DNA of 64,000 nt. It comes from Alcaligenes faecalis. Its GTDB lineage: Bacteria; Pseudomonadota; Gammaproteobacteria; Burkholderiales; Burkholderiaceae_B. Of this stretch, positions 23,184 to 45,340 are shown piece after piece. Made by a program: the position numbers and the translations under genes. The notes beneath the pieces were generated by a model that had not been told where the DNA came from, did not search any database, and saw only the letters and a list, made by a program, of their open reading frames with translations. The stretch spans positions 434,001 through 498,000 of the forward strand of contig NZ_CP168006.1 in the NCBI RefSeq assembly GCF_041521385.1. The letters are read 5' to 3'. Position 1 is the first letter of the stretch. Every line of letters begins with the position of its first letter.

Positions 23184-23545
23184 TGGTGGAGTCGGGGGGA
23201 ATTGAACCCCCGTCCGCAAGCCGTCCACAGACAGTTCTACATGTGTAGTCAATTAATTTTAAGTTTTAACCTTGGACTGTGCCAATTGACAGGCCTTTCC
23301 TTGGCGATCCACTAAGTTTTAGAACCGGACTTCGTGGCGCAGGCCGATTCGATTCTTTGTAAATGACACTGCTGTAGGTTGCCCTACCTAACCCAAAGAC
23401 AAATTAGTGCAGTGGCCCAGCCTTAAGCGGCTAGAGCGAAACGCTCGTCGTTGGCGTTTGTAGTTTTCCAGTGGATTTACGAGCGTACTGGTGCTCGACA
23501 CGCCCTGTGCTGCTTCTTGACCCACGTCGAAGCCATGTCGACCCC
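23184..23545 (-). ncRNA. ssrA: Transfer-messenger RNA (tmRNA), tag ANDERFALAA
   Basis: A one-piece tmRNA of 362 bases, minus strand, from GGGGTC at 23545 to GACTCCACCA at 23184. The 5' and 3' ends pair to form the acceptor stem, and the 3' part GGGGGTTCAATTCCCCC forms the T arm. The tag frame (23455 down to 23426, stop at 23423-23425) encodes ANDERFALAA, typical of beta-proteobacteria. It rescues stalled ribosomes with SmpB and marks the broken product for ClpXP. No intron or permutation is visible. Confidence 0.97.
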
Positions 23546-26798: not shown

Positions 26799-27190
26799 TC
26801 AAACAAAGGGCGCCCGTTCCAGCCTCTGCTACCAACTCCGGGCAGAATAGGTCAATCGTGTACCGGTAAGGAGCCTGCGTCATTTGCTTCCCCTAGCCGA
26901 TTGAAATATCGCATTCTTTTCGTCGCACGCCATCAGAGCACCTTTCTCCAGCACAACACCAGCACCGCTTGCCCATTACGGCACAATGTCGTGCCATCGT
27001 CCAGCCACATCAAGGCTCTGAAACCATAGCCTTCTCCCCCTCATCTACGACCAAAGTCGCCTGTTGGGAAACGTTGATTCGTTCTATACATGCTGTACAC
27101 AGAGCGCCCTCAAGCGCCAACTCTCTGTACACGCCGTGTTTAGAGAGGCTCGATGCCAAGAATCATCAACCTCGATAAGGAGACATAAGA
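26799..27190. other. Leader region before yjcH-actP
   Basis: Roughly 390 bases with no gene. It contains a candidate regulator box CGACCAAAGTCG and a weak promoter (TTGGGA at 27064-27069, TATACA at 27085-27090) near its right end, then GGAG before yjcH. The left part shows nothing I can support. Confidence 0.6.
27045..27060. promoter_or_regulatory. Candidate activator site for yjcH-actP
   Basis: CTACGACCAAAGTCGC holds the inverted repeat CGAC-CAAA-GTCG (27048-27059), centred about 45 bases before the predicted start near 27097, the right place for a NarL-type activator such as CrbR. Placement relies on a promoter that is itself weak. Confidence 0.4.
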
Positions 27191-27502
27191 ATGAGCTCAG
27201 CCAATACTGCCGTATCGGCAGTTACCCAGCACCCTGCCTATCAAGAGCTGCTTAGAAAACGCAACCGCATGAGCCTGATTTTTTTCGGCTTGACCGTGAT
27301 TGTGTACGCCGGTTTTATCTTGACCCTGGCCTTTGATCCCGAACTGTTCAGCCGCTCTGTCGGTTCCATGACCATGACAATTGGTGTGCTGAGTGCCGCC
27401 ATTGTGCTGCTTAGTGCCGTCGTGCTGGTGTCCGCCTTCGTCTACATTTCCAACAAGGTGTATGACCCCTTACTGGCTCAAATCATGAAGGACGTGACAT
27501 GA
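27191..27502 (+). CDS. yjcH: DUF485 (YjcH-like) small membrane protein
   Basis: A 103-residue inner-membrane protein with two transmembrane segments ([20 protein letters not shown] at about 33-52, then [20 protein letters not shown] at about 64-83). It matches the DUF485 partner that always precedes the acetate permease. Its stop overlaps the start of actP by four bases (ATGA), so the two are translationally coupled. Its function is thought to be in assembly or control of the transporter. Confidence 0.92.
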
Positions 27503-29163
27503 AGAAACGACTTCTGAGCCTGGGCCTGTTCAGTCTGGCCAGCGGCAATGCCCTAGCGGCCTCCCCCGGCCAGGCCAATACCTCTGCCATTGTCATGTTC
27601 CTGATCTTTATTGCCGGGACCATGGGCATTACCTGGTGGGCGGCACGCCGCACACGCACCACGTCCGACTTTTACACTGCCGGTGGCGGTTTGACCGGCT
27701 TTCAAAACGGCCTGGCGATTGCCGGGGACTATCTGTCCGCCGCCTCCTTCCTGGGGATTGCGGGCATGGTGTACGTCAGCGGTTTTGACGGCATGATTTA
27801 CGCCATCGGCTTCATGTTCGGCTGGCCGGTTGTGATGTTCCTGATTGCAGAACGCCTGCGCAATCTGGGCCGCTACAACTTTGCTGACGTGACCTCGTTT
27901 CGCCTGTCCCAGAACCCCATGCGGATTCTGGCGGCCAGTGCGTCCCTGCTGATCATCGCCCTGTACCTGATCGCGCAAATGGTCGGCGCAGGCAAACTGA
28001 TCGTGTTGCTGTTTGGCCTGGACTACAACGTGGCCGTCGTCATCGTAGGTTCACTGATGATGATCTACGTCACCTTTGGCGGCATGACAGCCACCACCTG
28101 GGTGCAAATCATCAAAGCCGTGCTGATGCTGTTCGGTGCTACCTTGATGACGATTCTGGTTCTGGCTGCGTTCTACTGGGATGTCGATGCCATGCTGGCC
28201 GCTGCCGTGGAAACACACCCTACCGGACACGCCATTCTTGAACCCGGCGCAGCTGTCAGCAGCAACCCGCTGAACGTGCTGTCCCTGGGTATTGCCCTGG
28301 CCTTCGGTACCGCTGGCCTGCCCCATATCCTGATGCGTTTCTTCACCGTGGCCGATGCCAAGGAAGCCCGTAAATCCGTGATCTACGCCAGCAGCTTTAT
28401 TGGCTACTTCTACCTGCTGACCTTCATCATCGGTTTCGGTGCCATCGCCTTGCTGGTCAAGCATCCCGAGTACTTCCAGACCGGCCCGGATGGTTCCTTC
28501 AACATGCTGACCGACCTGATTGGCGGCACCAATATGGTGGCGGTGCACCTGGCCAATGCGGTAGGTGGCAACCTCTTGCTGGGCTTCCTGGCCGCCGTGA
28601 CTTTTGCAACAATCGTGGCCGTGGTTGCAGGATTGGCCTTGGCCGGTGCCGCGGCTATTTCGCATGACTTGTACGCCAACGTCATTGCCAAAGGCCGCGC
28701 CACCGAAAAAGACCAGATGCGCATTTCGCGTATCTCCACAGTGGTGCTGGGTGTGCTGGCGATTTTGCTGGGCATTATCTTTGAAAACCAGAACGTCGCC
28801 TTCATGGTGGGCCTGGCCTTTGCCATTGCCGCCAGTGCCAACTTCCCGGTTCTGGTACTGTCGATTGCCTGGCGTGGTTGCACCACACGGGGCGCCACCA
28901 TTGGCGGCTTCCTGGGCCTGGTCACCGCCACAGTGTGGGTGGTCTTGAGCAGCACAGTATGGGTCGATGTATTCGGTTTTGCCGAGCCTATCACCCCCTT
29001 CCCTAACCCCGGCATCCTGTCCATCCCGCTGGCTTTCTTCTCGATCTGGCTGTTCTCGACCCTGGATAACAGCGCACGCGCTGCCAAGGAACGCGAAGCC
29101 TTCGAAGCTCTGACCGTACGCAGTCAAACCGGCATTGGTGCGGCTAGCGCCAGCGCTCACTAA
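27499..29163 (+). CDS. actP: Cation/acetate symporter ActP
   Basis: A 554-residue sodium:solute symporter-family permease. Signal-like N-terminus [20 protein letters not shown], followed by about 13 helices; [20 protein letters not shown] and [20 protein letters not shown] are the ActP/YjcG signature; the [20 protein letters not shown] block is also diagnostic. It imports acetate and other short carboxylates. No acs gene is adjacent, unlike E. coli acs-yjcH-actP. The following genes encode the CrbS/CrbR acetate switch, which fits a self-contained uptake and sensing module. Confidence 0.93.
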
Positions 29164-29202
29164 GGCTTTTACGCTGATTCAATCAGCACGCTGAAACAGA
29201 AC

Positions 29203-29229
29203 ACAGGGCATTTCGGTGCCCTGTTTTTA
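29203..29229 (+). terminator. Intrinsic terminator after actP
   Basis: ACAGGGCA-TTTCGG-TGCCCTGT then TTTTTA; perfect eight-base arms. Confidence 0.88.
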
Positions 29230-29291
29230 TGGATGTGCAGCTCATCCTGGCAGGCATCATTACAGAAACTTGAACATGGCATAATCCCCAC

Positions 29292-29954
29292 ATGAATGAA
29301 CTGCTCATTGCGGACGATCACCCACTATTTCGTGAAGCGTTACGAGGCGTCGTCGCCAGCCTGTTTCCCGGCACGGCCATTTACGAAGCAGATTGCATCT
29401 CCAATTTATATCCCCTGGTCGACGACCATCCGGACGCCGATCTGCTCTTGCTGGATCTGGATATTCCAGGGGCAATTGGTTTTAGCGCCCTGGTTCATTT
29501 ACGAGCGACCTATCCCTCCCTGCCCATCATTCTCGTTACCGCCCATGAAGAAGCCCGCTTCATGCGCCGCGCCATGGATCACGGCGCCATGGGTTTCATC
29601 CCAAAATCCATTGATGCACAAACACTGAGCGTGGCTTTGCAAGTGGTTTTGGACGGCGGCACCTGGCTACCGGAAATCAACTCGTCCGCCCCTGGCATCA
29701 GCCTGGACGAGCGCGAAGTGGCCGCAAAATTGCGCGAGCTGACGCCACAACAATTTCGCGTGCTGCAAATGCTCAGCACCGGCCAACTGAACAAGCAGAT
29801 CGCCTACGAGCTGAATGTCTCGGAGGCCACTATCAAGGCGCACATGACAGCCATTTTGCGTAAGCTGGGCGCCTCCAACCGCACCCAGGCCGTCCTGATG
29901 GCTAGTCATCTTGGCCTGAACCAGGATGAATCCCAGCACGCTAATACGTTTTAA
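29292..29954 (+). CDS. crbR: NarL/LuxR-type response regulator of the acetate switch
   Basis: A 220-residue regulator: receiver domain 1-120 with Asp8, Asp9 and phosphoacceptor Asp55 (LLLLDLDIPG), Lys in GFIPKS; LuxR HTH at about 150-205 (LTPQQFRVLQMLSTGQLNKQ, ELNVSEATIKAHMTAILRKL). It is convergent with the very large hybrid kinase, and the two 3' ends overlap by 14 bases. CrbR (also called ErdR/AgmR-like) activates acs and actP when acetate is present. Confidence 0.88.
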   Translation: MNELLIADDHPLFREALRGVVASLFPGTAIYEADCISNLYPLVDDHPDADLLLLDLDIPGAIGFSALVHLRATYPSLPIILVTAHEEARFMRRAMDHGAMGFIPKSIDAQTLSVALQVVLDGGTWLPEINSSAPGISLDEREVAAKLRELTPQQFRVLQMLSTGQLNKQIAYELNVSEATIKAHMTAILRKLGASNRTQAVLMASHLGLNQDESQHANTF

Positions 29955-32900
29955 TTTGCGCGGTCAAAAAAGCTCGTAGCGAAGCGGGCTTTACCGGCTT
30001 GGTCAGCACCAGATAACCATATTGCCGGGCTGCCGCTTTCAGCTCATCGCTACCATCCGCCGTCAACAAGGCACCCTGCGCGTGGGGCAAATGCAAGCGC
30101 AATAATTGCAGCGCCTGCAAGCCATCCAGCCGATCATGCAAGTGGTAATCCACCAGCAAGACATCAGGGTTCAAAACAATTTTCTCCAACGCACTGTCTA
30201 CTGTATTGGCGGTGATGATTTCCGCTCCCCAACGGCCCAGCAGCACTTCCATGCCCGCCATGATATCCAGATCATTGTCCAGACACAGCACGCGCAAGCC
30301 CGTCAAAGGCAAGCCATCTGCAGGCTTGCTGGACTCCTTATTTTGATGACTGCTGGCCTCGCTAGCGTGACTCAAAGGGACACGAATGGAGAACATGCTG
30401 CCACGCCCCACCTCGGATCGTACATCCAGCGTGTGGCCCAACAAGACCGCAATACGTTGGCAAATGGACAGGCCCAAGCCCAGGCCACGGCCATCCCAAT
30501 CGAAGGCTTGCTCATAACGATGAAACTCCGCATAAATCTGCTGAATATGATGCGGCGGAATACCTTGACCTGAATCCCAGACCTGAAACTCCAGCTCCTC
30601 GCCCCGGGCTCGCACGCCAAACACCACTCGTCCTTCCTGGGTGTAGCGCAAGGCATTGGCCAGGAAGTTCTGCAGCACACGCCGCAACAGACGATGGTCG
30701 CTATACACTTGCAAAGGCCGAGCATGAACCCGCAACTGGATACCACGTCGTGCAGCCATAGGAGCGTATTGATCCGCCAAATGCTGCAGCAGATGCTGCA
30801 CATTGATCACACCCAGATCCGGCTTCAAGGCTCCGGCATCCAGACGGGAAATATCCAGCAGACCTTCCAGCAACTCCTCTGCGGTACGCAAAGAAGTATC
30901 GACCCGCTCGGCCAGATTGGGCATTTCCGCAAGATCATGGGTATCCCGCAAGGCCGAGGCGAACAGGCGTGCCGCATTAATCGGTTGCAGTACATCATGG
31001 CTGACCGCCGTCAGGAATCGGGTGCGAGACTCCTGGGCTTTCTCCGCTTCCTGTGTACGCGCCGCAACACGCTGCTCCAGACTGTCGTTCATCTCCCGCA
31101 GCTCGCGTTCCACACGCTTGTAATGGGTGATGTCGCTATAACTGGTGACATACCCGCCACCCGGCAAAGGTCGTCCCCGCAGCTCGACCACCTGCTTGTC
31201 ATTCAACATGCGTTGAGTCACATAAGACGAGCCTTCACGCATGAATTGAATGCGACGTTCTATGGCCTGCTCCACCCCTATGCTCTCAACACCATCAACC
31301 TTGCCACGCTCTGCATTAAAGCGAATCAAATCAGCCACGGAGCGGCCCACATACAACATGCTGGGCGGATAATCGAACAACTGCTGATAGCGCTGATTCC
31401 AGGCAACCAGACACATGTCCGCATCCACCACGCTGACGCCCTGATCAATATTTTCCAGCGTCGCCAGCAAAATATCCCGATTGAAACGCAGCTCCTGCCC
31501 CGCCTCATCCAGCACGGCCATGATGGCGGCTACCTCCATGCCCGAACCACGCAAGGCGCTGGTCAGCACCAGACGGGCAGACGCCGCCCCCACTGCTGCT
31601 GCCAGCAAGAGCTCCGTAAAATGCACCCAGGCACTATCCGCCCGCAAACCGGGCTCCAGCGTTTGCTTGACCTGTCTGGCCTGAGTCTCAAAAGCCCGGC
31701 GCGCCATTTTCTTGCCAACAATACGCTCTGCCAATGCCTGCAGATCGTGCACCGACAGATCCCCATAAGAATGCCGGGCCGCCAGTGTTTGTCGCTCTGC
31801 ATAAGGATCCAGAAAAGGCTCGGCACGCAAGCGTTCTCCCAAGCCCGGAGGTCGACGCCAGGACACCCACAAGCAGGCACTGATATTGCACAGCAAGGAC
31901 CAGAACGTACCATGCGTCAGCGGGTCCCAACCTTCTACGCCAAACAGTTGATAAGGGCGTAACCAGGACAGTCCCAAAGGCCCTTGATGCAACCAGTCAT
32001 CCGCCAACCAGCCCACCTCGGTCAGGGTCGGCAGAAGCAAGGTGTAAACCCAGATGGCAAAGCCCAAGAGCAGCCCGGCCTCCACCCCCTGCCGACTGGC
32101 GCCACGCCAATACAAACCACCGATCAAGCCCGGCCCAAACTGCGCAACCGCCACAAAAGCCATCAAGCCGTAGGCTGCCAAGGTCGTGTCGCTGCCGCTG
32201 AGCATGTAATAGCCGTAAGCCACACCCGCCAGCGCCATGATGGCAACACGACGTATCCATAACACCGTGGAAGCCACCGTGCTTTGCTGATACTGCGCCC
32301 AGCCACGACGCAGCAACAAGGGCATCACCAAGTCATTACTGACCATGGTTGAGAGCGCCACGCTGGTCACAATCACCATGCCGGTTGCCGCCGAAAAGCC
32401 ACCTATATAAACCATCAAGGCCAGGCCAACCTGGTTTTGCGACAAAGGCAAGGCCAGCACAAAGCTGTCCGGTGCCACGCCCTCGCCCCCGACGCCAAAC
32501 AAGCTGACACCTGCCGCAGCAATGGGCAAAACCATGACGCTGACCACCAGCAGATACGCACCGAACAACCAGCGCGCCCGCCGTATATCCACCACATCAC
32601 CACACTCCACAATGGCCACATGGAACTGACGGGGCAAACAAATAATGGCGGCAAAGGCCAGCAAGGTTTGCCCTACAAAGCCCACGGGTGGACTGCTCTC
32701 GAACAAGGTGGTGACGGCTCCCACCATATTGAGTTCAGCTTCGCCAAACCAGCGAAAGGCGAACCAACCAACGGCAACCAGCGCCACCAGTTTCACCACC
32801 GACTCAAACGTCACGGCCAGCATCAAACCCGGTCTGTGCTCGGTGGCATCCACCTGCCGCGTTCCAAACAGAATGGCAAACAAGGCCATCAAAATGGCAA

Positions 32901-33384
32901 CATACAAGGCTGGGTCGCCTAATAAACCCGTATGAAACTCCGTCCCGGCCAGCACGCTCAAACTCAAGGCGACCGCCTTGTATTGCAGGGCCAGATACGG
33001 AACAGCCGCCACCACCGCAATCCCCGCGACCATGGCCGCCAGGCGCTGCGAACGCCCATAACGACTGGCCATGAAATCCGCAATGGACACCGTATTCTGG
33101 GACTGAGCCACCATCGCCAGGCGTTCGATAATCCGCCAGCCAAACAGCAGCATCAGCAGGGGGCCTAAATAAATAGGCAAGAAGCCAATGCCATAGCGCA
33201 CGGCCGAGCCGACCGCCCCGTAAAAGGTCCACGAAGAACAGTACACAGCCAGGGCCAGACTGTAGACCGTGGGTCGCAACCACGGGCGCTGGGTATACAA
33301 GGGATGCCTGTCCCCGAACCAGGCAATAGCGAACAAAATGGCGGCGTAAATCAAGGAAGCCAACACCACCCAAGCTGGCGTCAT
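29941..33384 (-). CDS. crbS: SSS-domain hybrid sensor histidine kinase (CrbS-like)
   Basis: An about 1147-residue membrane kinase. Residues 1-510 form a sodium-solute-symporter-like domain with about 13 helices (opening VVLASLIYAAILFAIAWFGD, then VYSLALAVYCSSWTFYGAVG), followed by a PAS (about 640-760; NRDILLATLENIDQGVSVVD), HisKA with phospho-His in FLTAVSHDVLQPINAARLF, an ATPase domain (NFLANALRYT, DSGQGIPP, GLGLGLSI) and a terminal receiver with DVLLVDYHLHDRL. I chose the ATG at 33384 because AGGAG precedes it by nine bases; a GTG two codons upstream is too near it. It senses acetate through a transporter-like domain. Confidence 0.9.
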   Translation of the reverse strand: MTPAWVVLASLIYAAILFAIAWFGDRHPLYTQRPWLRPTVYSLALAVYCSSWTFYGAVGSAVRYGIGFLPIYLGPLLMLLFGWRIIERLAMVAQSQNTVSIADFMASRYGRSQRLAAMVAGIAVVAAVPYLALQYKAVALSLSVLAGTEFHTGLLGDPALYVAILMALFAILFGTRQVDATEHRPGLMLAVTFESVVKLVALVAVGWFAFRWFGEAELNMVGAVTTLFESSPPVGFVGQTLLAFAAIICLPRQFHVAIVECGDVVDIRRARWLFGAYLLVVSVMVLPIAAAGVSLFGVGGEGVAPDSFVLALPLSQNQVGLALMVYIGGFSAATGMVIVTSVALSTMVSNDLVMPLLLRRGWAQYQQSTVASTVLWIRRVAIMALAGVAYGYYMLSGSDTTLAAYGLMAFVAVAQFGPGLIGGLYWRGASRQGVEAGLLLGFAIWVYTLLLPTLTEVGWLADDWLHQGPLGLSWLRPYQLFGVEGWDPLTHGTFWSLLCNISACLWVSWRRPPGLGERLRAEPFLDPYAERQTLAARHSYGDLSVHDLQALAERIVGKKMARRAFETQARQVKQTLEPGLRADSAWVHFTELLLAAAVGAASARLVLTSALRGSGMEVAAIMAVLDEAGQELRFNRDILLATLENIDQGVSVVDADMCLVAWNQRYQQLFDYPPSMLYVGRSVADLIRFNAERGKVDGVESIGVEQAIERRIQFMREGSSYVTQRMLNDKQVVELRGRPLPGGGYVTSYSDITHYKRVERELREMNDSLEQRVAARTQEAEKAQESRTRFLTAVSHDVLQPINAARLFASALRDTHDLAEMPNLAERVDTSLRTAEELLEGLLDISRLDAGALKPDLGVINVQHLLQHLADQYAPMAARRGIQLRVHARPLQVYSDHRLLRRVLQNFLANALRYTQEGRVVFGVRARGEELEFQVWDSGQGIPPHHIQQIYAEFHRYEQAFDWDGRGLGLGLSICQRIAVLLGHTLDVRSEVGRGSMFSIRVPLSHASEASSHQNKESSKPADGLPLTGLRVLCLDNDLDIMAGMEVLLGRWGAEIITANTVDSALEKIVLNPDVLLVDYHLHDRLDGLQALQLLRLHLPHAQGALLTADGSDELKAAARQYGYLVLTKPVKPASLRAFLTAQIKTY

Positions 33385-33845
33385 CAGCACGGTCTCCTAC
33401 TTTGGTATAACGCGATGATTTTTCTCGCGATTGTGAGTAATACTAAGGCAGTTCCTGCGGGATCTGGCCTTGCATGGCTAGGGCTTATCACCTATACCCA
33501 ATTTGAATTTCAGGACAAATCTCTTGGGGCAGGCAGCACCCGCAGCATCATGAGCCACGGTGAGGATCACGTCCCGCACCGACAAACCCGGAACGATGCC
33601 TGCATTCCTGTCCTTATGTCGCATTTAACAAGCGCAGCAAAACGATGCGCAGGCCGTATTCAAGCCAGCGCTGCATCACCTGTTTGGACGAAGAGCTTTC
33701 GTCTGACATCACAAAAAGAAATAGAGCGTTTGAGCTTCATGGGCTTTTGCCCTGGCCTAAAACTCATCTATCACTCGCAAACGAAAAACGCCCCGACACA
33801 AAAACTATCTTTCATCGTCACGCGGGGCACATTAAAGGAGGCAAG
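33385..33845. other. Intergenic region before the ATP-sulfurylase-like gene
   Basis: Some 460 bases without a credible gene. It contains the crbS promoter side and ends with an unusually good ribosome site (AAAGGAGG, 33836-33843). A long-range pairing GCCCCG/CGGGGC (about 33790 and 33825) could fold over the ribosome site region. No known riboswitch was recognised. Confidence 0.5.
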
Positions 33846-35555
33846 ATGAAGCACTCAACCTTGAACGTTGACCGCTACCCCCAGCAGCCGCATGGTGGAA
33901 CGCTGGTCAATCAAGTTGTCCCGGAAGATCGGGTAAAAGACGAGATCGAGCGCGCGCGCTCCCTGCCCAGCATCCGCGTGGATCTGGAGGCGGTCATCAC
34001 CATCGAGATGATCGCCACCGGGGTGCTCTCTCCCAACAAGGGCTTCATGAACGAGGCCGACTACAACTCCGTGCTCAAAGAGGGTCGCTTGAGTAATGGT
34101 GTGGTGTGGCCTGTGCCGCTGAGCTTCGCCCCGATTGGCGATCGCAACCGCGACATTATCAAAGGCCTTTCAGTCGGCTCTGAAGTGGCATTGACCAATA
34201 GCGACAACGAGCCGGTTGCCATCCTGAGCATCGAGGACATTTTCTCCTACGACAAGGAGCAGCGCGCCCAGCAATTGTTTGGCACCACGGACAGAAACCA
34301 CCCCGGTGTGGACTCCATTTACCGCCGCATGGGCGATGTGTCTCTGGGCGGCACCTTGCACCTGCTGCAACGTGTGGACTGGGGCCCGTTCGAGAAGCTG
34401 CGTCGCGAACCTAAGGACACCTGGCGTCTGTTCTACGAAGAAAAGAAATTCAATTCCGTGGCAGGCTTTATCACCGGCGCAAACCCGCTACACCGGGGTC
34501 ACGAGTACATTCACCGCAATGCGCTGGAGGGGATTGATGGCCTGTTCCTGCAACCACTCGTAGAGATGGCCAAACGTGAATACGTGCGCCATGAGTTCCG
34601 CATGATGGCCTACCGCAATGTGCTGGATACCTACTACCCCAAGGACCGCGCCATCCTCTCGCCGCTGCGTGTCACCTATATTTTTGCGGGCCCGCGCGAA
34701 ACCATTTTGCATGCCCTGATCATGAAGAACTATGGGTGTACCCACGCCCTGATTGGTCGGGATCACGCCGGGATAGGCAGCTACTACGACAAGTACGCCA
34801 GCCACAGTATTTTCGACCAGTTCAGCCCCAAGGAAATGGGCATCGATGTGCGCCTGTTCCATGAGGTGTTTTACTGCACGCGCTGCGCCTGCCATGCCAC
34901 TTCCGAGACCTGCCCGCACGATGATCGCTTCAGGCTGACCATCTCCGGCACCGGCATTCGCGAGATGCTGCGTCACGGCATCATGCCACCCAAGGAAATC
35001 TGCCGTCCCGAATCCATTTTGCCGGCCATGCAGGGCGTGCAACCCAAGGGGCTGTGCGAAGAAGGCGAAGCCATCCAGCCCGTCAGCAAAGTCATCCAGA
35101 GCATGTTCCCCTACTACACCCAGTACACCCGTCTGGGCGGGGCCAAGCGTAGTGAAGCACTGGACCCATCTCAACTGACGGTGCGCGATCTGGAAATCGC
35201 CAGCCACGACGTGCGGCACCATGCGGAGGATATCTACAAGGGGGTGTACACCGAGTACAGCGCCGTCGTGGACCACAACCGCAGCATGCAAGCCGCCTGG
35301 ATTGAGGATGCGCGCGCCGCCCTACGCTTCCAGCAAGAGCGTCTGATCGACGATCTGGAGGAAAAGCAACAGCAAGCACCACAAGAGGCCTCAGACGAAT
35401 TCATGTATCAGGACAAACAGGAAGTGGTGCGCGAGCTGCATTCGGCCCGCAGCTTGCTGGATGACATTCCGGCGGTGATTTCTGCCAAGCAACTAAGCAC
35501 ACGCACCTGGAACGTCCTGCCTTACCAACGCTATCGTGGGGCGGATAAGGAATAA
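33846..35555 (+). CDS. ATP-sulfurylase-like nucleotidyltransferase with altered sulfate site
   Basis: A 569-residue protein. Residues about 1-170 are the PUA-like N-terminal domain of ATP sulfurylase (HGGTLVNQVVPEDRVKDE, IATGVLSPNKGFMNEADY); 180-385 the catalytic domain with HxGH (NPLHRGH 213-219), GRDHAGIG (304-311), zinc Cys344/347/356 and SGTGIREML (367-375). In known enzymes NPxH is preceded by QTR; here it reads TGA, so the sulfate-binding Gln and Arg are Thr210 and Ala212. A roughly 180-residue C-terminal extension (385-569), helical and Gln/Glu-rich, is not in the usual enzyme. There is no cysDNC or aprAB here. It may adenylylate another oxyanion or be an altered paralogue. AAAGGAGG supports the start. 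Confidence 0.85.
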   Translation: MKHSTLNVDRYPQQPHGGTLVNQVVPEDRVKDEIERARSLPSIRVDLEAVITIEMIATGVLSPNKGFMNEADYNSVLKEGRLSNGVVWPVPLSFAPIGDRNRDIIKGLSVGSEVALTNSDNEPVAILSIEDIFSYDKEQRAQQLFGTTDRNHPGVDSIYRRMGDVSLGGTLHLLQRVDWGPFEKLRREPKDTWRLFYEEKKFNSVAGFITGANPLHRGHEYIHRNALEGIDGLFLQPLVEMAKREYVRHEFRMMAYRNVLDTYYPKDRAILSPLRVTYIFAGPRETILHALIMKNYGCTHALIGRDHAGIGSYYDKYASHSIFDQFSPKEMGIDVRLFHEVFYCTRCACHATSETCPHDDRFRLTISGTGIREMLRHGIMPPKEICRPESILPAMQGVQPKGLCEEGEAIQPVSKVIQSMFPYYTQYTRLGGAKRSEALDPSQLTVRDLEIASHDVRHHAEDIYKGVYTEYSAVVDHNRSMQAAWIEDARAALRFQQERLIDDLEEKQQQAPQEASDEFMYQDKQEVVRELHSARSLLDDIPAVISAKQLSTRTWNVLPYQRYRGADKE

Positions 35556-35618
35556 GGCGGTATCTTGCCACACCGTCCTGCTCGGATTGAGATCGGGCAG
35601 GACGCCCCTGGCAGATAC

Positions 35619-36839
35619 CTATTTCGATGATGGAAAGCCATGTGAGCGGGCAACTCCAGTGACCGCTAATGCCGCGACAAGCAGGACCAGCACACTCCAT
35701 GGGAAAGCAGACACACTAAAGGTTTCGAGCAGAATGCCGCCTACAATTCCACCGCCGGCAATGGCGATATTCCAGACCGTCACCATCATGGATTGCGCCA
35801 CATCGGTGGCTTTCCCTGCCGCCTTGGCCAAGGCCGTTTGAAAGAGCGTTGCCGAACCGCCAAAGGCTAGCCCCCAGGCGACGACAGACGCGTAGACAGC
35901 AGCCGGTACGGTGCCTGCAAGCCCAAGTGTCAGCGCGGCAAGTGCGAACAGCATCATGCTGATCAACACCAGTTCACGCAAGCAGCGGTCGATCAACACA
36001 CCCACAATCCAGATGCCCAGTAGCGCGGCTACGCCAAAAACCAGCAAGACGAGATCGATCCGATCCGCTATGCCAACCGGAACGAGAAAGGGGGCAATGT
36101 AGGTGTAGAGGATGTTATGGGCTAGCACATAGACGAGAGTAACGAACAGAATCGGCCGAATACCTGGTAAAGCAAAAACCGTCTTGAGCGCAACCCCCTT
36201 TCCGCGCACTTGGCCAGGAAAGTCTGGCACCTTGGCAATCACCCAGACCACAAGAATCACCGTCAGAATGCTCATAAGACCAAAAGTCACGCGCCAGCCC
36301 CAGGCCGCACCCAGAAACGTGCCGGCTGGGATGCCCAAAGAAAGTGCAATCGGTGTACCTGCCATGGCGATTGCGATGGCGCGGCCCTTCAGGTGTTCAG
36401 GCACCATGCGGGCCGCATAGCCAGCCACCAAGGCCCACAACAGTCCTGCAAATACACCGGCAAAGAAACGGGCGACAAGTGTGATGGCATAGCTGTCAGA
36501 AACAGCAGTCACCGTATTGACAACAGCGAAGCCGCTGATGGCGATCAGCAACAAAGACCGACGCCGCCAACTCTGCGTGACCACCGTCAAGGGAATCGCG
36601 GCAAGCAGTGAGCCAATCGCGTAAATGGTGACGAGTTGGCCAACCAAGGCCTCGGATACCATCAGGCTTTGCGCCATCAGAGGCAACAAGCCGGCAGGCA
36701 GAGCTTCGGTCAGGATCGTGATGAAGGCTGCCATCGCCAAGGCCAGCAAGGCAGGAAGCGGCAGACGATCCTGATGGGTCACAAGTGCCTCATTGCATTC
36801 CTGCAAGCAGGCTGAGCTGTTCATAGAGGTAGTACTCAT
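35619..36839 (-). CDS. MFS transporter, DHA1 (12-helix) family
   Basis: A 406-residue permease with about 12 helices: PLPALLALAMAAFITILTEA, LPAGLLPLMAQSLMVSEALV, then AGYAARMVPEHLKGRAIAIA and GTPIALSLGIPAGTFLGAAW, the motif-B/C region of AraJ-like sugar or drug efflux proteins. The start ATG overlaps the stop of the collapsed hydrolase ORF by four bases (ATGA). It is divergent from a LysR regulator through that ORF. Substrate unknown. Confidence 0.85.
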   Translation of the reverse strand: MSTTSMNSSACLQECNEALVTHQDRLPLPALLALAMAAFITILTEALPAGLLPLMAQSLMVSEALVGQLVTIYAIGSLLAAIPLTVVTQSWRRRSLLLIAISGFAVVNTVTAVSDSYAITLVARFFAGVFAGLLWALVAGYAARMVPEHLKGRAIAIAMAGTPIALSLGIPAGTFLGAAWGWRVTFGLMSILTVILVVWVIAKVPDFPGQVRGKGVALKTVFALPGIRPILFVTLVYVLAHNILYTYIAPFLVPVGIADRIDLVLLVFGVAALLGIWIVGVLIDRCLRELVLISMMLFALAALTLGLAGTVPAAVYASVVAWGLAFGGSATLFQTALAKAAGKATDVAQSMMVTVWNIAIAGGGIVGGILLETFSVSAFPWSVLVLLVAALAVTGVARSHGFPSSK

Positions 36840-37261
36840 TGCCCCACCTTCAAGGCACCATAGACCACATTACGCAAATCCGTGACAAAGCGGCCAGACA
36901 TGCCCCCGTACAAAGTATTAGTGAAGGCGAGCACTCTAAGCCTTTGCGCCCGGTCGACGAACCATGAATGACCGTAGGCTCCGCCCCAGCGCCAGGCTCC
37001 ATTGGACTGGGGCGATGCAGCCAGCATCCGGTCGCGCAGGACCGAAAAGCCCAGCCCAAACCCGAACCCCGGTGCATCCGGCAATTCGTGGCCCTTCGTC
37101 TGGTCCCTTCCCATTTTCGCGACCATTTTGCTGGGCAGCAGGCCGCCGCGGGCTACCAGCACGACCACACCGACCAGGCGGCCTTGGTCCAGTGCCTGTT
37201 GTACACGGGTGGAAAGATGCGCAGGCGGGGCGTCGGCGCATCGCGTAATTACGGAAGTCAT
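36836..37261 (-). pseudogene. Internally deleted beta-lactamase-family serine hydrolase
   Basis: The ORF joins an N-terminal piece (STRVQQALDQGRLVGVVVLVARGG) directly to a C-terminal piece (LPDAPGFGFGLGFSVLRD, GAYGHSWFVDRAQRLRVLAF) of the class C beta-lactamase/esterase fold at about residue 40 (around 37138-37145). The whole SxxK and YxN region, normally more than 200 residues, is missing; only 141 residues remain against about 400. The frame is kept, and the ATGA overlap with the downstream MFS gene keeps translation coupled, which may explain its survival. It cannot be an active hydrolase. Confidence 0.75.
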
Positions 37262-37335
37262 CACAGGTAATTCCTTTCATCAATAGACCCAAACGTCATG
37301 ATAGAAAGCCTGAAATTAAAGAAAAAGTCAGGTAG

Positions 37336-37356
37336 AGTTCCGTTTTAAGCGGAACT
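37336..37356. promoter_or_regulatory. Inverted-repeat operator between the LysR gene and the MFS unit
   Basis: AGTTCCG-TTTTAAG-CGGAACT, perfect seven-base arms with seven between, in the divergent gap, 22 bases before the LysR start. A likely LysR site controlling both sides. Confidence 0.6.
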
Positions 37357-37378
37357 TTATGTCCGTAATTGAGGGGTG

Positions 37379-38314
37379 ATGGTGGACAGTCTCAACAGCT
37401 TCGTGGTGTTCGTCCAAGTGGCTGAAGTACGCAGCTTCATTGCGGCGGGTCGACTGCTGGGCGTGTCGGCCTCTGCGGTCGGTAAGAGTGTGGCGCGGCT
37501 GGAGGAAAAGCTGGGTGTGCGCCTGTTCCACCGTAGCACTCGCAGTGTCTCACTCACAGCCGAGGGCTCGCTGTTCCTGGAGCGCAGCCGCCGCATCCTT
37601 GCCGAAATCGAGGCGGCAGAACAGGAACTGTCGCAGGCGACGACTATGCCGCATGGCCGGTTGCGAATCAGCCTACCTTTAGTCAGCTCGCTGTTACTGC
37701 CCGTGCTCGGCGAGTTCATGCGCGAGTACCCAGAGATCGAACTGGACCTGGATTTCAGCGACCGGCTCGTTGATGTGATCGAGGAAGGTTTCGACGCCGT
37801 AGTCAGAACGGGCGACCCAACTGACTCGCGCCTTTCCGCCCGTCGGCTTGGCTCTTTTCATTCGATGCTGGTCGCTTCACCCGACTATCTGGCGCGGCAA
37901 GGAATACCCCAAGTACCTGCCGATTTACTGGCGCACAGTTGCCTGCACTACCGCTTTCCCAACAGCGGCAAACTAGAGCCGTGGGCGCTACGCCGCGCTG
38001 CAGATGAACCCGAACTGACGCTCCCCACCTCGATGATCTGCAATAACATTGAGACGCGCCTGTGCTTTGCGCTGCAGGGCTTAGGCATCGCCTACCTGCC
38101 AGAGTTCTCGATCAGAGAACCTCTGGCAAATGGGCGGCTGCAGACTGTTCTGGCCGATCATGCCCAGCGAACTGGCGTTTTTTACATCCTTTGGCCCGCC
38201 AGCAAACATCCTTCGCCGAAGGTCAGAGCCTTCGTCGATTTCCTGTGCGCTCATGTGTTTCCGGCTGCTCTGGACAAGCCACAAACCAAACCCCACCGCG
38301 TGAACGGCCAATAA
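37379..38314 (+). CDS. LysR family transcriptional regulator
   Basis: A 311-residue LysR regulator with HTH DSLNSFVVFVQVAEVRSFIA, AAGRLLGVSASAVGKSVARL, and an effector domain from about 90 (GRLRISLPLVSSLLLPVLGE). It belongs to the group with the SVARLEEKLGVRLFHRSTRS block. It is divergent from the MFS unit and the 21-base operator lies between. Several start codons (GTG, ATG, GTG) crowd the region; ATG 37379 is taken. The effector is unknown. Confidence 0.88.
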   Translation: MVDSLNSFVVFVQVAEVRSFIAAGRLLGVSASAVGKSVARLEEKLGVRLFHRSTRSVSLTAEGSLFLERSRRILAEIEAAEQELSQATTMPHGRLRISLPLVSSLLLPVLGEFMREYPEIELDLDFSDRLVDVIEEGFDAVVRTGDPTDSRLSARRLGSFHSMLVASPDYLARQGIPQVPADLLAHSCLHYRFPNSGKLEPWALRRAADEPELTLPTSMICNNIETRLCFALQGLGIAYLPEFSIREPLANGRLQTVLADHAQRTGVFYILWPASKHPSPKVRAFVDFLCAHVFPAALDKPQTKPHRVNGQ

Positions 38315-38469
38315 ATGCCCACCCTCAATCCGCTCCACTTCCCACGCCTGCCCTAGGGCGAGATTTTGACGCACCGCCTGAGCAGATATTGACCTAGTCT
38401 CAGCCATTGAACCTGCTGTATAGACTTTGACTCAGTGCGGCACATGATGCACTGGCAGCATCTTGGACA

Positions 38470-38507
38470 AAAAAAACCCCTGATCTTGCTTGAGACCAGG
38501 GGGTTTA
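38470..38507 (-). terminator. Terminator of the speD-speE gene
   Basis: On the minus strand ACCCCCTGGTCTC pairs with GATCAGGGGT-type sequence around a short loop and is followed by eight T. It lies 50 bases beyond the spermidine gene stop. The opposite strand also ends in TTTATTT, so it may be bidirectional. Confidence 0.8.
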
Positions 38508-38559
38508 TTTCTTGCACAGTCAACGGATCGCCAAGCTTTGGCAATATATCGCAGGCAGC

Positions 38560-39837
38560 CTAACAGACCTCTTCCAGATTGGTCTCGTTCACCGGCATCA
38601 GACGGCGGTAGAACGTAGGCAAAGCAAACAAGGCACCATGAAGATCAGCGTTGTAAAACTGCAGGGAATCCTGGTTCTCGCTGCTCATACGCTGCTCCAG
38701 ACGCTCCTGAATTTGCTCGGCACAGAACGTACGCGGGTTCAACTCATCAGAAGCAATCGCCAACCCCCAGTAAGAGCCGTACAGCGGGATATGCAGCCCG
38801 TAGCCATGCACTTGGGCGAACACGCTGGCCAAGGAGGAGCTCAGATTCTTGACCTGCTGGCTTTCGTGGAAAGGCGAACCCAGGTGCAACACCAAAGCAC
38901 CACCGCTTGCCAGCGCGCGTTTGCAGGACTCAAAGAACTCAGCGGTGTACAAGGGACCGGCCGGAGTTTCGGGGTCGGTCAGATCCAGATAAATCAGATC
39001 AAACTGCTCCTGCGTCGTGGCCAGGAACTGCGCACCGTCTGCAATTTGAATCTGCACACGTGGGTTATCAAATGCCCCCTTGTGAATGGACTGCAGGTGT
39101 TCGCGAGCTACCTCAATCACCTCACCATCCAGTTCAACCAGAGACACACGCTCCAGGCTGGGGTACTTCAACAGTTCTTCCAGGGCTCCGCCATCACCAC
39201 CGCCCACGATCAGGGCGCGACGAGGATTGGGATGAGCCATGGCAGCCGGGTGAATCAGACCTTCATGGTAGAAGAACTCTTCAGCCTCGGAGGTCATCAT
39301 GCAACCGTCCAGGCGCAAGGTCGTACCCAGGGTTTCGGAACGCAGCAATTCCAGACGTTGGAAAGCCGTCTGGCGCTCCAACAAACGCTCGGTAAAGCGG
39401 AAACCGTACAAGGCGTCCTGGTTCAGGTTTTCCGTCAGCAACTCGCCCGCATGAGCCGGGCCGTCGGCCTCGCCGCGCCACAAGCGATTACGCTGGGCCT
39501 GGCCGGGCTTGAAAGCCTGTTCAATTCCGTTGATCAGGCCGGTCGCCTTGCCCGAGTTATCCTGCATGAAGTTGCAGACATAAACGTCCAACGTCACGCC
39601 ACCACGCTCGGGCCAGGTATGAATGGCCAAGTGGGACTCGGCCAGCAACAGTACACCGGTGACACCACCGGGCTGCCCTTCAAACTCGGGAAATGCCTGC
39701 CACTCCTCACCAACAATCGTCAGCCCTGCATCAATCGTTTGCTGGCGGCAAAAATCAGCCAGTTTCTGGGCATCGATCAGCAGCTCCGGGCTGCATGCAC
39801 ATTGGTAAAGGTCTGCGGTCAAGTGCAAGCCTTGCAT
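38560..39837 (-). CDS. SpeD-SpeE fusion: S-adenosylmethionine decarboxylase plus spermidine synthase
   Basis: A 425-residue fused protein. Residues 1-120 are a prokaryotic class Ib AdoMet decarboxylase with ESHLAIHTWPERG at 67-79; Ser68 is the pyruvoyl-forming residue, His73 follows. Residues about 130-425 are a spermidine synthase: GGGDGGALEELLKYPSLERV, VELDGEVIEVA, and DLTDPETPAGPLYTAEFF with the catalytic Asp. It makes decarboxylated AdoMet and transfers its aminopropyl group onto putrescine in one chain. Self-cleavage at Glu67-Ser68 would release the first 67 residues, but both parts stay bound. It stands alone, flanked by terminator and kinase gene. Confidence 0.92.
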   Translation of the reverse strand: MQGLHLTADLYQCACSPELLIDAQKLADFCRQQTIDAGLTIVGEEWQAFPEFEGQPGGVTGVLLLAESHLAIHTWPERGGVTLDVYVCNFMQDNSGKATGLINGIEQAFKPGQAQRNRLWRGEADGPAHAGELLTENLNQDALYGFRFTERLLERQTAFQRLELLRSETLGTTLRLDGCMMTSEAEEFFYHEGLIHPAAMAHPNPRRALIVGGGDGGALEELLKYPSLERVSLVELDGEVIEVAREHLQSIHKGAFDNPRVQIQIADGAQFLATTQEQFDLIYLDLTDPETPAGPLYTAEFFESCKRALASGGALVLHLGSPFHESQQVKNLSSSLASVFAQVHGYGLHIPLYGSYWGLAIASDELNPRTFCAEQIQERLEQRMSSENQDSLQFYNADLHGALFALPTFYRRLMPVNETNLEEVC

Positions 39838-40011
39838 AATCGTGTGCTCCTTTAACGGATTTTGCGCTCCCTACCAACGAGATGACCGCAACATAAAAAC
39901 TTCAAAGCGAGGTGCACCTGAACAGGCGATCACCTCGCTTCATCGAAAAGAGCGCAAATTGTACCTTATATCAAACTTAAATATATGAAAATAACCCTAT
40001 TTTAGAGAAGA

Positions 40012-41127
40012 TTAAGGTGTATACGATGCGGAAGGCAGCAGAACCAATTCCATGACCAAATGCGCACCCGGTCCCGGATGTTCCTTGAAATACACCCTGC
40101 CCCCGTGGTGCCGCACAATCGAACGCAAAATGGACAAACCCAGACCACTACCTTGTACCTGTTGGCCAGGTAGGCGATAGAACTTGTCAAACACTTTATC
40201 TTGATAAATAGGATCAATACCCGGCCCTTGGTCCAGAACCTCTATACAGGCCCAACCAGCTTGGCCAGGCCGCAAACGCAAGATCACCACGGTATCCGCA
40301 GCCGAGTACTTCAAGGCATTTTCCAGGGCATTTCGCAGCGCCACAAGCAAAGGAACAACATCCACTCTGGCCCACAAACTGTGCGACGGTAAATCCAGAC
40401 AAATCCGCTGGCGCTGTTCATTGAAAGCACGCAGGCTCAGACGCAACACCGCGCGCAAATCCGACGCGCGCCACTCCCGGCTGCCGACCCCGTCGTACTC
40501 AATGCGATTCAGTTGCGTCAACTCATCCAGCAGCACATCCACACCTCGGACTTTTTCATGTAACTGCATGTAAATCTTACTGGCCCAGGCTGACGGGGTA
40601 GCCTCCAACTGCAGCAATTCAATATAGCCACTGATGGCCGCCAGCGGAGAGCGTATTTCATGGGCGGCCACCGCAAAACAGTCTGCCCGGTCTCGTTCTT
40701 TTTGCATGTGAGCGGTGACATCGCGAATCATCAATAACGTGGCCGTATCTGGAGCTGGCGCAGCATAGGAGTGAAACTCCAGTGCACGTCTGCGCTCGCC
40801 TTCACCATCCCGGTGCATACCGTAAAAGGGATGATTGCTGCGGTAAATAGCTTGGCTAATTCCAGGTAGCAAATACGCTAAATCGGCCTGCAGTCCATTT
40901 TCGAGACGTTGGAAAAAATCAAGAAAGTCATTTTTGCCATTGACCAGCTCCGGCAGACCCAACATGTTACGCATGGCCCGATTACAGCCCAGCAGCCTCC
41001 CACCGGAATCAAACATCACAATCGCATCCGGCAAGGTATCCAGCATTTGTTCCGAACAATGCGATCTTTCATAAGTCAGCCTGGGCCATTTAGGAACACT
41101 CGCTTGATTAAACAAGCGTTGCCCCAT
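40012..41127 (-). CDS. PAS-domain sensor histidine kinase
   Basis: A soluble kinase of about 371 residues. PAS domain at about 30-145 (TLPDAIVMFDSGGRLLGCNR), HisKA with FAVAAHEIRSPLAAISGYIE, ATPase with NALENALKYS, DQGPGIDP, KVFDKFYRL and GSGLGLSI. No membrane segment is clear; at the very N-terminus is one weak hydrophobic stretch. I chose the ATG at 41127; an upstream TTG (41157) is equally possible since no ribosome site is visible. No response regulator is beside it on its strand; the nearest is the divergent HTH-receiver protein at 41957. Confidence 0.85.
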   Translation of the reverse strand: MGQRLFNQASVPKWPRLTYERSHCSEQMLDTLPDAIVMFDSGGRLLGCNRAMRNMLGLPELVNGKNDFLDFFQRLENGLQADLAYLLPGISQAIYRSNHPFYGMHRDGEGERRRALEFHSYAAPAPDTATLLMIRDVTAHMQKERDRADCFAVAAHEIRSPLAAISGYIELLQLEATPSAWASKIYMQLHEKVRGVDVLLDELTQLNRIEYDGVGSREWRASDLRAVLRLSLRAFNEQRQRICLDLPSHSLWARVDVVPLLVALRNALENALKYSAADTVVILRLRPGQAGWACIEVLDQGPGIDPIYQDKVFDKFYRLPGQQVQGSGLGLSILRSIVRHHGGRVYFKEHPGPGAHLVMELVLLPSASYTP

Positions 41128-41415
41128 TAGAAAACTGGTAAATAATGTGAGCAACAAGTCAATCCCCTATTTCTGCCCCAAAACAAGCACTGTGCCTGCC
41201 TCAGTGCGTTCTCAATCGCCATGCCGCAAAAGATCAGGCTCCGAAAATACACCTGCTTTTTTCCGGATGGGATTATCGACACGCCGATATCTTGCATCGG
41301 CCTGGGTGAAACAAACGATCAATTACCTAATAACGTTATTTCATTACCAACAAGCCAAAAAACGGGAAAAGCACTATGACGTTTAAAAATCTTGACTCCA
41401 AAATAACGCGCCAGA

Positions 41416-41435
41416 CTGTTTAAAATCATAAACAG
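41416..41435. promoter_or_regulatory. Palindrome CTGTTT-AAAATCAT-AAACAG
   Basis: Perfect six-base arms with an eight-base centre, 40 bases before TAAGGAGG and 120 before the orphan terminator. Probably an operator for a nearby transcript. Confidence 0.35.
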
Positions 41436-41439
41436 CCGT

Positions 41440-41575
41440 ATCATAAGGCGCACAGAGCTGATTGTAGAAAATAAGGAGGCTTGCATAAAATAGATTCCTA
41501 TTTATTTCATAAAGGCTGACTGGGATCAAGGTCAATACCCACAAAAAACACTAGGGTGCAAACACCCTGTTTTTC
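41440..41575 (+). ncRNA. Candidate small RNA ending at an orphan terminator
   Basis: The stretch contains no plausible ORF but ends in a good intrinsic terminator with nothing upstream to terminate on this strand. It carries a complete TAAGGAGG anti-ribosomal sequence and an AT-rich stretch. The 5' end is guessed from the palindrome upstream. Family unknown. Confidence 0.35.
41553..41575 (+). terminator. Orphan intrinsic terminator
   Basis: AGGGTG-CAAA-CACCCT followed by GTTTTTC. Six-base perfect arms with a tetraloop; there is no plus-strand gene for 1.3 kb upstream. Confidence 0.7.
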
Positions 41576-41842
41576 TGCTTGGGCAGTCCCCCCACTATCC
41601 TGGGCACCAATTTGCTGCATTACACGACAAGTGTGTTCAACGACCTACACTGGAAGGTCCGGTAACACGACAGCACAAGGGATACGCGTAAAATCAGCAA
41701 GGCGAGTCCAGGTTCATAGGCCCGCCAGATTGAAGTGATTCCCTGAAGAAACATGAACATCTGAAAATCGGAGATATTAGAAGCATGTGTGTCGAATACT
41801 CTGCCTATCACTAGGCATGAACAGGCCACTTCCCATTGCCAG

Positions 41843-41874
41843 TATTAGTATTTCAATTTCAGTACTTACTAATA
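41843..41874. promoter_or_regulatory. Inverted repeat before the HTH-receiver gene
   Basis: TATTAGTA (41843-41850) and TACTAATA (41867-41874) are perfect eight-base arms separated by 16 bases, about 82 bases before the start codon. Probably the site of the encoded HTH protein or of its partner. Confidence 0.45.
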
Positions 41875-41956
41875 TCGTCTCTACACTCTGCACTGCTACA
41901 TCGGGGCCCTTTTCCTTGACTACCCCGGTCTGGCCTGCTTTCATTTTTTTGACTCC

Positions 41957-42583
41957 ATGAACGACGCCGTTTACTCCACTCGGCAGGCTGCTGATTTACT
42001 AGGTGTGTCCGTACGCACCGTACAACTTTGGGTAGAAGCCGGAACCCTGAAAGCCTGGAAAACCCAAGGCGGCCACCGACGCATTGACCGCGACTCCGTG
42101 CAAACCATTTTGCAAGAGCGCCAAGGGCGCAGCAGTCAGCAACTGCCCGGTGCCCCTACTACCCCGACGAGCCTGCCCGTTTGCAACGAAGAACCCTGTC
42201 TGCGCGTACTGGTCGTTGAAGACGATCTGGATCTGCTGGCTATTTACCGTATGGCTATGGAACATCTGCCCTTTCCGATTGAACTGCGTTGCGAGCAGGA
42301 TGGGCTCAAAGGTCTGATAGCCGCGGGCAATTTCTACCCCGATGTCCTTATTGTGGATCTGAACTTGCCCAAGCTCGATGGTTTTGCCATGCTCAAGGCC
42401 TTGGCGGATGCCCCCGAAACAGGACATACCCAGATCTACGTGATTTCCGCTTTGAGTGCTGCCGACATTCACGCACGTGGTGGCCTGCCCAGCAACGCCA
42501 CAGCCCTGGCCAAGCCCATTCCCATCGCCTTGCTGTTGCAACTGCTCAGCGAAGCCTTCCACGCCCAGTACCTGCCCTCCTGA
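41957..42583 (+). CDS. Excisionase-type HTH fused to a C-terminal receiver domain
   Basis: A 208-residue protein. Residues 4-54 are a MerR/excisionase-like winged helix (YSTRQAADLLGVSVRTVQLW, GGHRRI); 55-80 a linker; 81-205 a CheY-like receiver with Asp89, Asp90, phosphoacceptor Asp134 (LIVDLNLP) and Lys186. In ordinary response regulators the receiver comes first, so the order is inverted. It likely binds DNA as a phosphorylation-controlled switch and probably pairs with the neighbouring PAS kinase. The gene is followed by a 200-base AT-rich region and the Aer-like receptor. Confidence 0.85.
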   Translation: MNDAVYSTRQAADLLGVSVRTVQLWVEAGTLKAWKTQGGHRRIDRDSVQTILQERQGRSSQQLPGAPTTPTSLPVCNEEPCLRVLVVEDDLDLLAIYRMAMEHLPFPIELRCEQDGLKGLIAAGNFYPDVLIVDLNLPKLDGFAMLKALADAPETGHTQIYVISALSAADIHARGGLPSNATALAKPIPIALLLQLLSEAFHAQYLPS

Positions 42584-45072: not shown

Positions 45073-45129
45073 AACAACTCCTGGCCGGATACGAGACGAA
45101 TGACCACAAACCCTCCCGGCCAAACGCGA

Positions 45130-45245
45130 AGGTCTATGGTCAAAAGTCTTGCCAGGCTAAGTTGCTACCAGCGCCATGACCCTGTATAGGCCAAGTATGT
45201 TGACGCTGATCTTCGCTAATCCGAAGCGGCTACTCCCTCATGACG
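45130..45245 (-). promoter_or_regulatory. yybP-ykoY (manganese) riboswitch
   Basis: Read on the minus strand: GAGGGAGTAGCCGC near 45240-45227, the conserved GTCAACATACT near 45204, then GGCAAGACTTTTGACCA at 45153-45137. These three blocks are the consensus landmarks of the yybP-ykoY aptamer. It is followed after about 60 bases by the GDT1 manganese exporter, the typical target. Exact ends are approximate. Confidence 0.88.
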
Positions 45246-45340
45246 AAGCGCATCGTAGCGTAGATTAGTGCACCTGTCCAATCGGAGATTTTCAACGCAC
45301 TGGAAGTACACTTGCTTATTTTCACGCTTTCACCTTACGC

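Follow-up and report, generated by a model that had tools for sequence, protein, structure and literature searches.

The 64-kb stretch of Alcaligenes faecalis DNA analysed here (the window) encodes a Sat-like protein that resembles ATP sulfurylase throughout its catalytic part and lacks the residues with which that enzyme holds sulfate, which raises the question of what acceptor, if any, it adenylates. Our answer, offered tentatively and from comparison of sequences, is that the protein may be an adenylyltransferase of the ATP-sulfurylase fold with a small monocarboxylate, not sulfate, as its predicted acceptor.

The frame of the Sat-like gene (Table 1) is open upstream to position 33645 (636 aa in the ORF list), and the start is placed at 33846 because the alignments of homologues begin at that Met1 and GGAGG lies 5' of its ATG. 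An earlier note on this DNA had described a protein that keeps nearly all features of homomeric ATP sulfurylase, and it does: PUA_2 and PF01747 score over their cut-offs, and HxGH, GRDHAG, SGT and the zinc-type residues are in place. All 62 aligned family sequences share the three ATP-site motifs without change, and through them the protein probably still binds ATP. In the HMMER alignment the zinc-type residues fall on the Cys/Cys/Cys/His of the Methanothermococcus enzyme, the region where the paper on that ATP sulfurylase locates zinc binding. The score of the protein exceeds the cut-off of the broader subfamily NF003166 (395.1 versus 387) and does not reach the equivalog cut-off of TIGR00339 (sopT; 306.4 versus 322.95); among the matches listed, all named homologues are annotated as sulfate adenylyltransferase. 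The C-terminal extension, which the note had called helical and 180 residues long, is indeed modelled as helices or a helical bundle, but its length is about 175 residues. Used alone as a query, it reached the cut-off of no Pfam family and matched no fold in the PDB at E 0.001; of 169 candidate proteins it hit 15, all apparently fragments of the same Sat-like protein.

Table 1. Features of the Sat-like gene and its neighbours (positions in the window; aa, residues of the Sat-like protein).
Feature	Position	Strand	Basis
ACTU-type (CrbR) predicted site TACGACCAAAGTCGCCT before DUF485-actP	27046..27062	+	20.9 bits
DUF485 protein, overlaps actP start	27191..27502	+	domain scan
ActP-type cation/acetate symporter	27499..29163	+	PRK09395, 850.1 bits vs cut-off 750
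CrbR/ErdR-like LuxR-type response regulator	29292..29954	+	ErdR, 229.3 bits, below cut-off 390
CrbS-like hybrid histidine kinase (PAS_7, HisKA, HATPase, REC), divergent from the Sat-like gene	29941..33390	-	domains, co-occurrence
Sat-like gene, 569 aa + stop	33846..35555	+	translation, family profiles, homologues
PUA_2 domain, aa 14-176	33885..34373	+	Pfam, 153.3 bits vs cut-off 27
ATP-sulfurylase catalytic domain PF01747, aa 184-390	34395..35015	+	Pfam, 229 bits vs cut-off 24.3; fold match
FITGANP-L-HRGH, aa 208-219 (FITGANP 208-214, HRGH 216-219)	34467..34502	+	canonical FQTRNP altered, HxGH retained
EMAKREY loop, aa 240-246	34563..34583	+	canonical Gly replaced by Glu240, canonical Asp by Tyr246
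TYI (aa 277-279) to Met293	34674..34724	+	canonical Arg gone at 279 and at 293
GRDHAG, aa 304-309, retained	34755..34772	+	translation, alignment
Zinc-type C344, C347, C356, H358, retained	34875..34919	+	each at least 90% in alignment A2
SGTGIRE, aa 367-373, retained	34944..34964	+	translation, alignment
C-terminal helical domain, aa 393-569	35022..35552	+	structure model; own sequence searches

In the yeast enzyme (Met3), Gln195 and Arg197 hold sulfate. The canonical FQTRNP is replaced by FITGANP, as the earlier note had read it, in the query and the 120 relatives listed of 7068 matches (121 of 121) and in all 81 family genes that were called in the fetched loci, host copy included (the gene was called in 80 of the 81 loci, that of L009 being missed by the ORF caller), and the loop is identical in the 62 aligned sequences; its presence in every member seen makes it a mark of the clade, not an error. 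The loop is one residue longer than QTRN: in the MAFFT alignment Ile209 stands opposite Gln and Ala212 opposite Arg, HMMER puts the gap one residue later and Arg against Gly211, and a gapless count backwards, the one that the note had followed, pairs Gln with Thr210, both residues being lost under every alignment. The assignment of the replacements to Thr210 and Ala212 made in the note is right about the double loss and, by MAFFT, about Ala212, but in that alignment Ile209 takes the place of Gln. Sulfate is neutralised in the human enzyme by Arg421 and Arg522, according to the docking in PMC11697783. Arg421 precedes the His of HNGH by four residues, which makes Ala212 its counterpart here. We take Arg522 to correspond to Arg305 of the Sat-like protein. 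Six positions are fixed differently in the family and in a canonical set of 14 sequences (one of them empty, 12-13 aligned at the quoted positions, most from Bacillales): Gln to Ile209, Arg to Ala212, Gly to Glu240, Asp to Tyr246, Arg to Ile279 and Arg to Met293; the five solved homologues printed in the HMMER search have canonical residues at all of them. The net effect is a loss of three positive charges and a gain of one negative charge, one Asp also being lost. Glu240, Tyr246, Ile279 and Met293 may be acceptor-site positions, in a region where the structure model is weak.

In a tree of 43 rows (31 family sequences, every second one, and 12 canonical sequences after two were dropped, with long branches flagged among the canonical rows), a 100/100 branch has the family on one side. 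The TGAN form is a separate clade, a point for which the note had asked for a tree, and neither QTRN in most of the clade nor decay, the note's counter-evidence, was found. Comparison with three relatives gave dN/dS values of 0.047, 0.028 and 0.037, which indicates a working protein under strong purifying selection; in the first two pairs the value of the C-terminal part exceeds that of the Sat part. A sequencing error, decay or an annotation artefact, of negligible probability, is refuted by these values and by the constancy of FITGANP in both counts above. Relatives 65-98% identical, most of them full length (80 loci kept of 151), occur in four phyla, the carriers being Alcaligenaceae, Pseudomonas, Aliidiomarina, Rhodobacteraceae, Bacillales, Actinomycetota (Leucobacter, Homoserinimonas) and Bacteroidota (Arenibacter). 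A match at 1e-100 was found in one of the 398 genomes of a phylum sample, namely the window's own, and the gene is present in 29 of 200 genomes of the host's family; this patchy distribution suggests that it spread horizontally and was then kept inside genera.

The bearing of the family on sulfate metabolism was judged from 28 carriers hand-picked for spread from the 80 loci, in which PF01747 and PF01507 were searched. A single PF01747 gene was found in 21 of the 28, and in 13 no protein reached the cut-off of PF01507 (PAPS/APS reductase, CysD); both hold, with the Sat-like protein as the only PF01747 protein, in 12 (G601, G605, G609, G610, G612, G613, G616-G619, G621, G623). The host genome has CysD away from the Sat-like gene, and inspection of the ORF list from 28000 to 42000 by eye found no cys gene beside it, in agreement with the note's statement that no sulfate-pathway gene is near. 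In the carriers checked, sulfate assimilation does not depend on the Sat-like protein, and these sequence data make it improbable that sulfate is the main acceptor. Since the named members shown are all called sulfate adenylyltransferase, pathway predictions may credit clade members with a sulfate activation that is absent. The changed substrate that the note had proposed is supported by the clade-wide loss, the purifying selection and the 12 of 28 carriers; the oxyanion or phosphonate acceptors that it had named are not, because the swaps lose positive charges and gain Glu, and because the neighbours that recur serve the uptake or sensing of monocarboxylates.

The gene order in Alcaligenes is DUF485-actP-crbR-crbS<>sat. 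In Gammaproteobacteria, CrbS/R governs acs and actP, according to PMC5715377 and PMC5436829. With a CrbR matrix built from ten sites in the literature, several of which are themselves predicted (Table 4 of PMC5715377 supplies the motif), the ACTU site before DUF485-actP is by far the strongest in the window (20.9 bits versus 11.0 for the next best), and none stands out before the window's Sat-like gene (7.4 bits at best, 0.21 expected by chance). Among 16 related loci, L024, L026 and L029 contain a site of 13.3 bits, which shares bases with the ribosome-binding stretch of crbS. A CrbS/CrbR system comprises a hybrid kinase fused to an SLC5 part, a LuxR regulator and ACTU sites; the window has the kinase and regulator domains and the ACTU site before actP, but for the membrane part of its kinase there is no Pfam SSF match, although the Rhodobacteraceae relative of this kinase has SSF. 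Among the 80 loci with called sat, 17 have a CrbS-like kinase no more than 2.3 kb from it, and a truncated one (72% identical over 428 residues) adjoins sat in L020. In nine loci, including Oligella and two Paenalcaligenes, sat and a DUF294/CBS gene are at most 200 bp apart.

Several other features were observed in passing. A GC-rich inverted repeat (GCCCCG...CGGGGC) at about 33790-33828, just 5' of the ribosome-binding site of the Sat-like gene, recurs on visual inspection in the Alcaligenes loci L005 and L016. The window also contains a manganese (yybP-ykoY) riboswitch (45073-45250, minus strand, 75.4 bits) and a tmRNA gene (23184-23545, minus strand). The actP-crbR-crbS-sat order of Alcaligenes, with several split frames, is found in a 16.7-kb sequence labelled as a Phaeobacter inhibens plasmid (L142, NZ_CP081281.1), which looks like a contaminant filed as a plasmid.

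Genes for uptake or sensing of short-chain acids recur near sat in three groups, the Alcaligenaceae, Bacillaceae and Rhodobacteraceae, as judged from neighbour ORFs that were called by length, some of which are spurious. In Bacillota, an ActP-type symporter lies 64-667 bp upstream of sat in 13 of 43 loci, with DUF485 visible in 12 of these and LytS-LytT within the locus in 11; no CrbS-like gene is clustered in the Bacillota loci fetched. The symporters of L064, the only Bacillota set scanned, scored best as the monocarboxylate carrier MctC (627.1 and 521.2, below the cut-off of 670), unlike the ActP of Alcaligenes, so the associations in Bacillota and Alcaligenes look independent. In Rhodobacteraceae, a histidine kinase with a symporter domain, 37-38% identical to the window's kinase (SSF plus HisKA in L027), is encoded about 7 kb upstream of sat in four of five loci, three of which also encode a protein with the ScfRs domain of short-chain fatty acyl-CoA regulators (123-129 bits, cut-off 24); the RamB score of this regulator is 283-288 bits in the two scanned, under the cut-off of 700. 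Directly upstream of sat in three Rhodobacteraceae loci (L023, L027, L032), together with the ScfRs/RamB-like regulator and the symporter-domain kinase, are Urt-like ABC genes, whose products in L027 score far under the cut-offs for urea transporters. A lactate-type MFS gene of one cluster adjoins sat in L048 and L050 (423 bits in L050, cut-off 320), and at 2744-7840 of L050, a Bacillales MAG, two sat copies 64% identical stand on either side of it. A BCCT carrier is encoded downstream of sat in Leucobacter (L063). Many other loci have no carboxylate-related gene near sat, and the Sat-like gene is often solitary.

The relation of the Sat-like gene to acetate activation was followed in the 200 genomes of the host's family (here Alcaligenaceae), 29 carriers and 171 non-carriers. 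AcsA (acetyl-CoA synthetase, 1e-150) is absent from 17 of 29 carriers versus 10 of 171 non-carriers (Fisher 1.2e-10), from 14 of 25 versus 2 of 97 among AckA-positive genomes and from 15 of 27 versus 1 of 15 among CrbS-positive genomes, and a CrbS-like kinase is present in 27 of 29 carriers versus 15 of 171 non-carriers, each comparison ignoring phylogeny. The co-occurrence of CrbS and Sat is mostly linkage, since the genes are at most 2.3 kb apart in 24 of the 27 co-carriers. The AcsA-lacking carriers belong to three genera (nine to Paenalcaligenes, g216; six to Oligella, g234; two to g249) and thus represent only a few events; these two names, and Allopusillimonas for g225, were assigned, like that of the family, via coordinates that G473, G419 and G477 share with the genomes of the named loci L012, L021 and L008, respectively. 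AckA is present in 14 of the 17, so that AckA-Pta may be their acetate route; in G496, G503 and G569 (87-95% complete) neither AcsA nor AckA was found, and G535 and G454 have AcsA without AckA, as if the two alternate. All nine Alcaligenes carriers possess AcsA. One of ten sampled genomes of the window's genus, G398, is without the Sat-like gene and has no crbS match in DNA or protein. Of the ten AcsA-less non-carriers, four are under 2 Mb (G420, G436, G455, G537) and two are 81-88% complete (G546, G554); neither small size nor incompleteness explains the absence in G411, G414, G504 and G548. Judged from the rows visible, nine of the 15 CrbS-positive non-carriers (G407, G428, G449, G467, G499, G515, G519, G565, G574) have acs and crbS no more than about 1.3 kb apart, an arrangement shared by the carrier G477, where sat is elsewhere; among the other six, acs is not adjacent in G525, AcsA is lacking in G554 and the rows of four are only partly visible. 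The 28 wider carriers yielded AcsA matches at 1e-100 in 25 (13 over cut-off) and AckA at 1e-60 in 22, Aliidiomarina (G601) having neither.

A monocarboxylate is the best-supported acceptor because carboxylate adenylation has a precedent on the superfamily fold, the swapped positions are less positive, and neighbours that import, sense or regulate the use of such acids recur in three groups. The Sat-like enzyme would bind ATP and adenylate acetate, propionate, pyruvate or lactate, the proposed products being an acyl-adenylate and PPi, and its private helical domain may assist in closing the site or in handing over the acyl group; catalysis, acceptor and product fate are what we infer. If the acceptor is a carboxylate, an enzyme of inorganic anions has been turned into an activator of organic acids, which would provide another route into central carbon metabolism. 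A bolder version, to which we give a small share of belief, makes the protein a new acyl-adenylate-forming enzyme that evolved independently from an ATP-sulfurylase scaffold; it may even be a full AMP-forming acyl-CoA ligase, its helical domain receiving CoA. In this version it would substitute for acetyl-CoA synthetase in Paenalcaligenes and Oligella and would have reached four phyla as one gene, carried under the wrong name. The acceptor of a stand-alone adenylyltransferase could also be something else, such as an amino acid or other zwitterion, an amine, a phosphonate or a toxic compound, with the acetate neighbours incidental. This is unlikely, yet deserves more weight than the other alternatives: many loci are solitary or have unrelated neighbours, the lost positive charges and Glu240 could suit a zwitterion, and the BCCT carrier and Urt-like transporters also adjoin sat; however, the links that recur, in three groups of two phyla, are to monocarboxylate transporters, sensors or regulators, and the loci share no partner enzyme for another substrate.

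A functional ATP sulfurylase whose sulfate site has been remodelled, suited to high sulfate, to making ATP from APS and PPi in reverse or to sulfation instead of assimilation, would account for the shared fold and ATP motifs, the NF003166 score and the annotation of the homologues; we consider it doubtful, because the TIGR00339 cut-off is missed, Gln and Arg are gone in all members seen, and 12 of 28 carriers have neither another PF01747 protein nor a PF01507 protein over cut-off, with sulfation and the reverse route keeping some likelihood. Less probable again is a sensor or regulator, the other role that the note had suggested, that binds ATP without turnover or works with CrbS in the control of acetate metabolism. 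Its linkage to crbS in most co-carriers of the host's family and its C-terminal helical bundle would fit such a role, whereas the invariance of the ATP-site motifs and the lack of a clustered CrbS-like gene in the Bacillota loci fetched argue against it.

Among known systems, homomeric ATP sulfurylase of the Bacillus, Thermus and Methanothermococcus type has the QxRN that is replaced in the Sat-like family, which adds four further fixed swaps and the C-terminal domain, stands on its own side of the 100/100 branch and is without a PF01507 partner in 12 of 28 carriers. The bifunctional Sat/APS kinase (PRK05537; fungal Sat) likewise has an extra part C-terminal to the Sat domain, but the extension of the Sat-like protein is modelled as helices, matches no Pfam family over cut-off and contains no APS kinase domain, and the protein misses the PRK05537 cut-off (253.7 versus 669). 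Carboxylate adenylation occurs on this superfamily fold in PanC and the class I aminoacyl-tRNA synthetases. By sequence, the Sat-like protein has no family match to the HIGH-superfamily relatives PanC and PPAT, from which its PUA_2 and zinc-type parts, both features of Sat, distinguish it. The superfamily is treated in PMC5370406. The acyl-AMP- and PPi-forming system found beside CrbSR has the same chemistry as that proposed here and a similar genomic niche, a likeness that is hypothetical. In family and fold, that system differs from the Sat-like protein.
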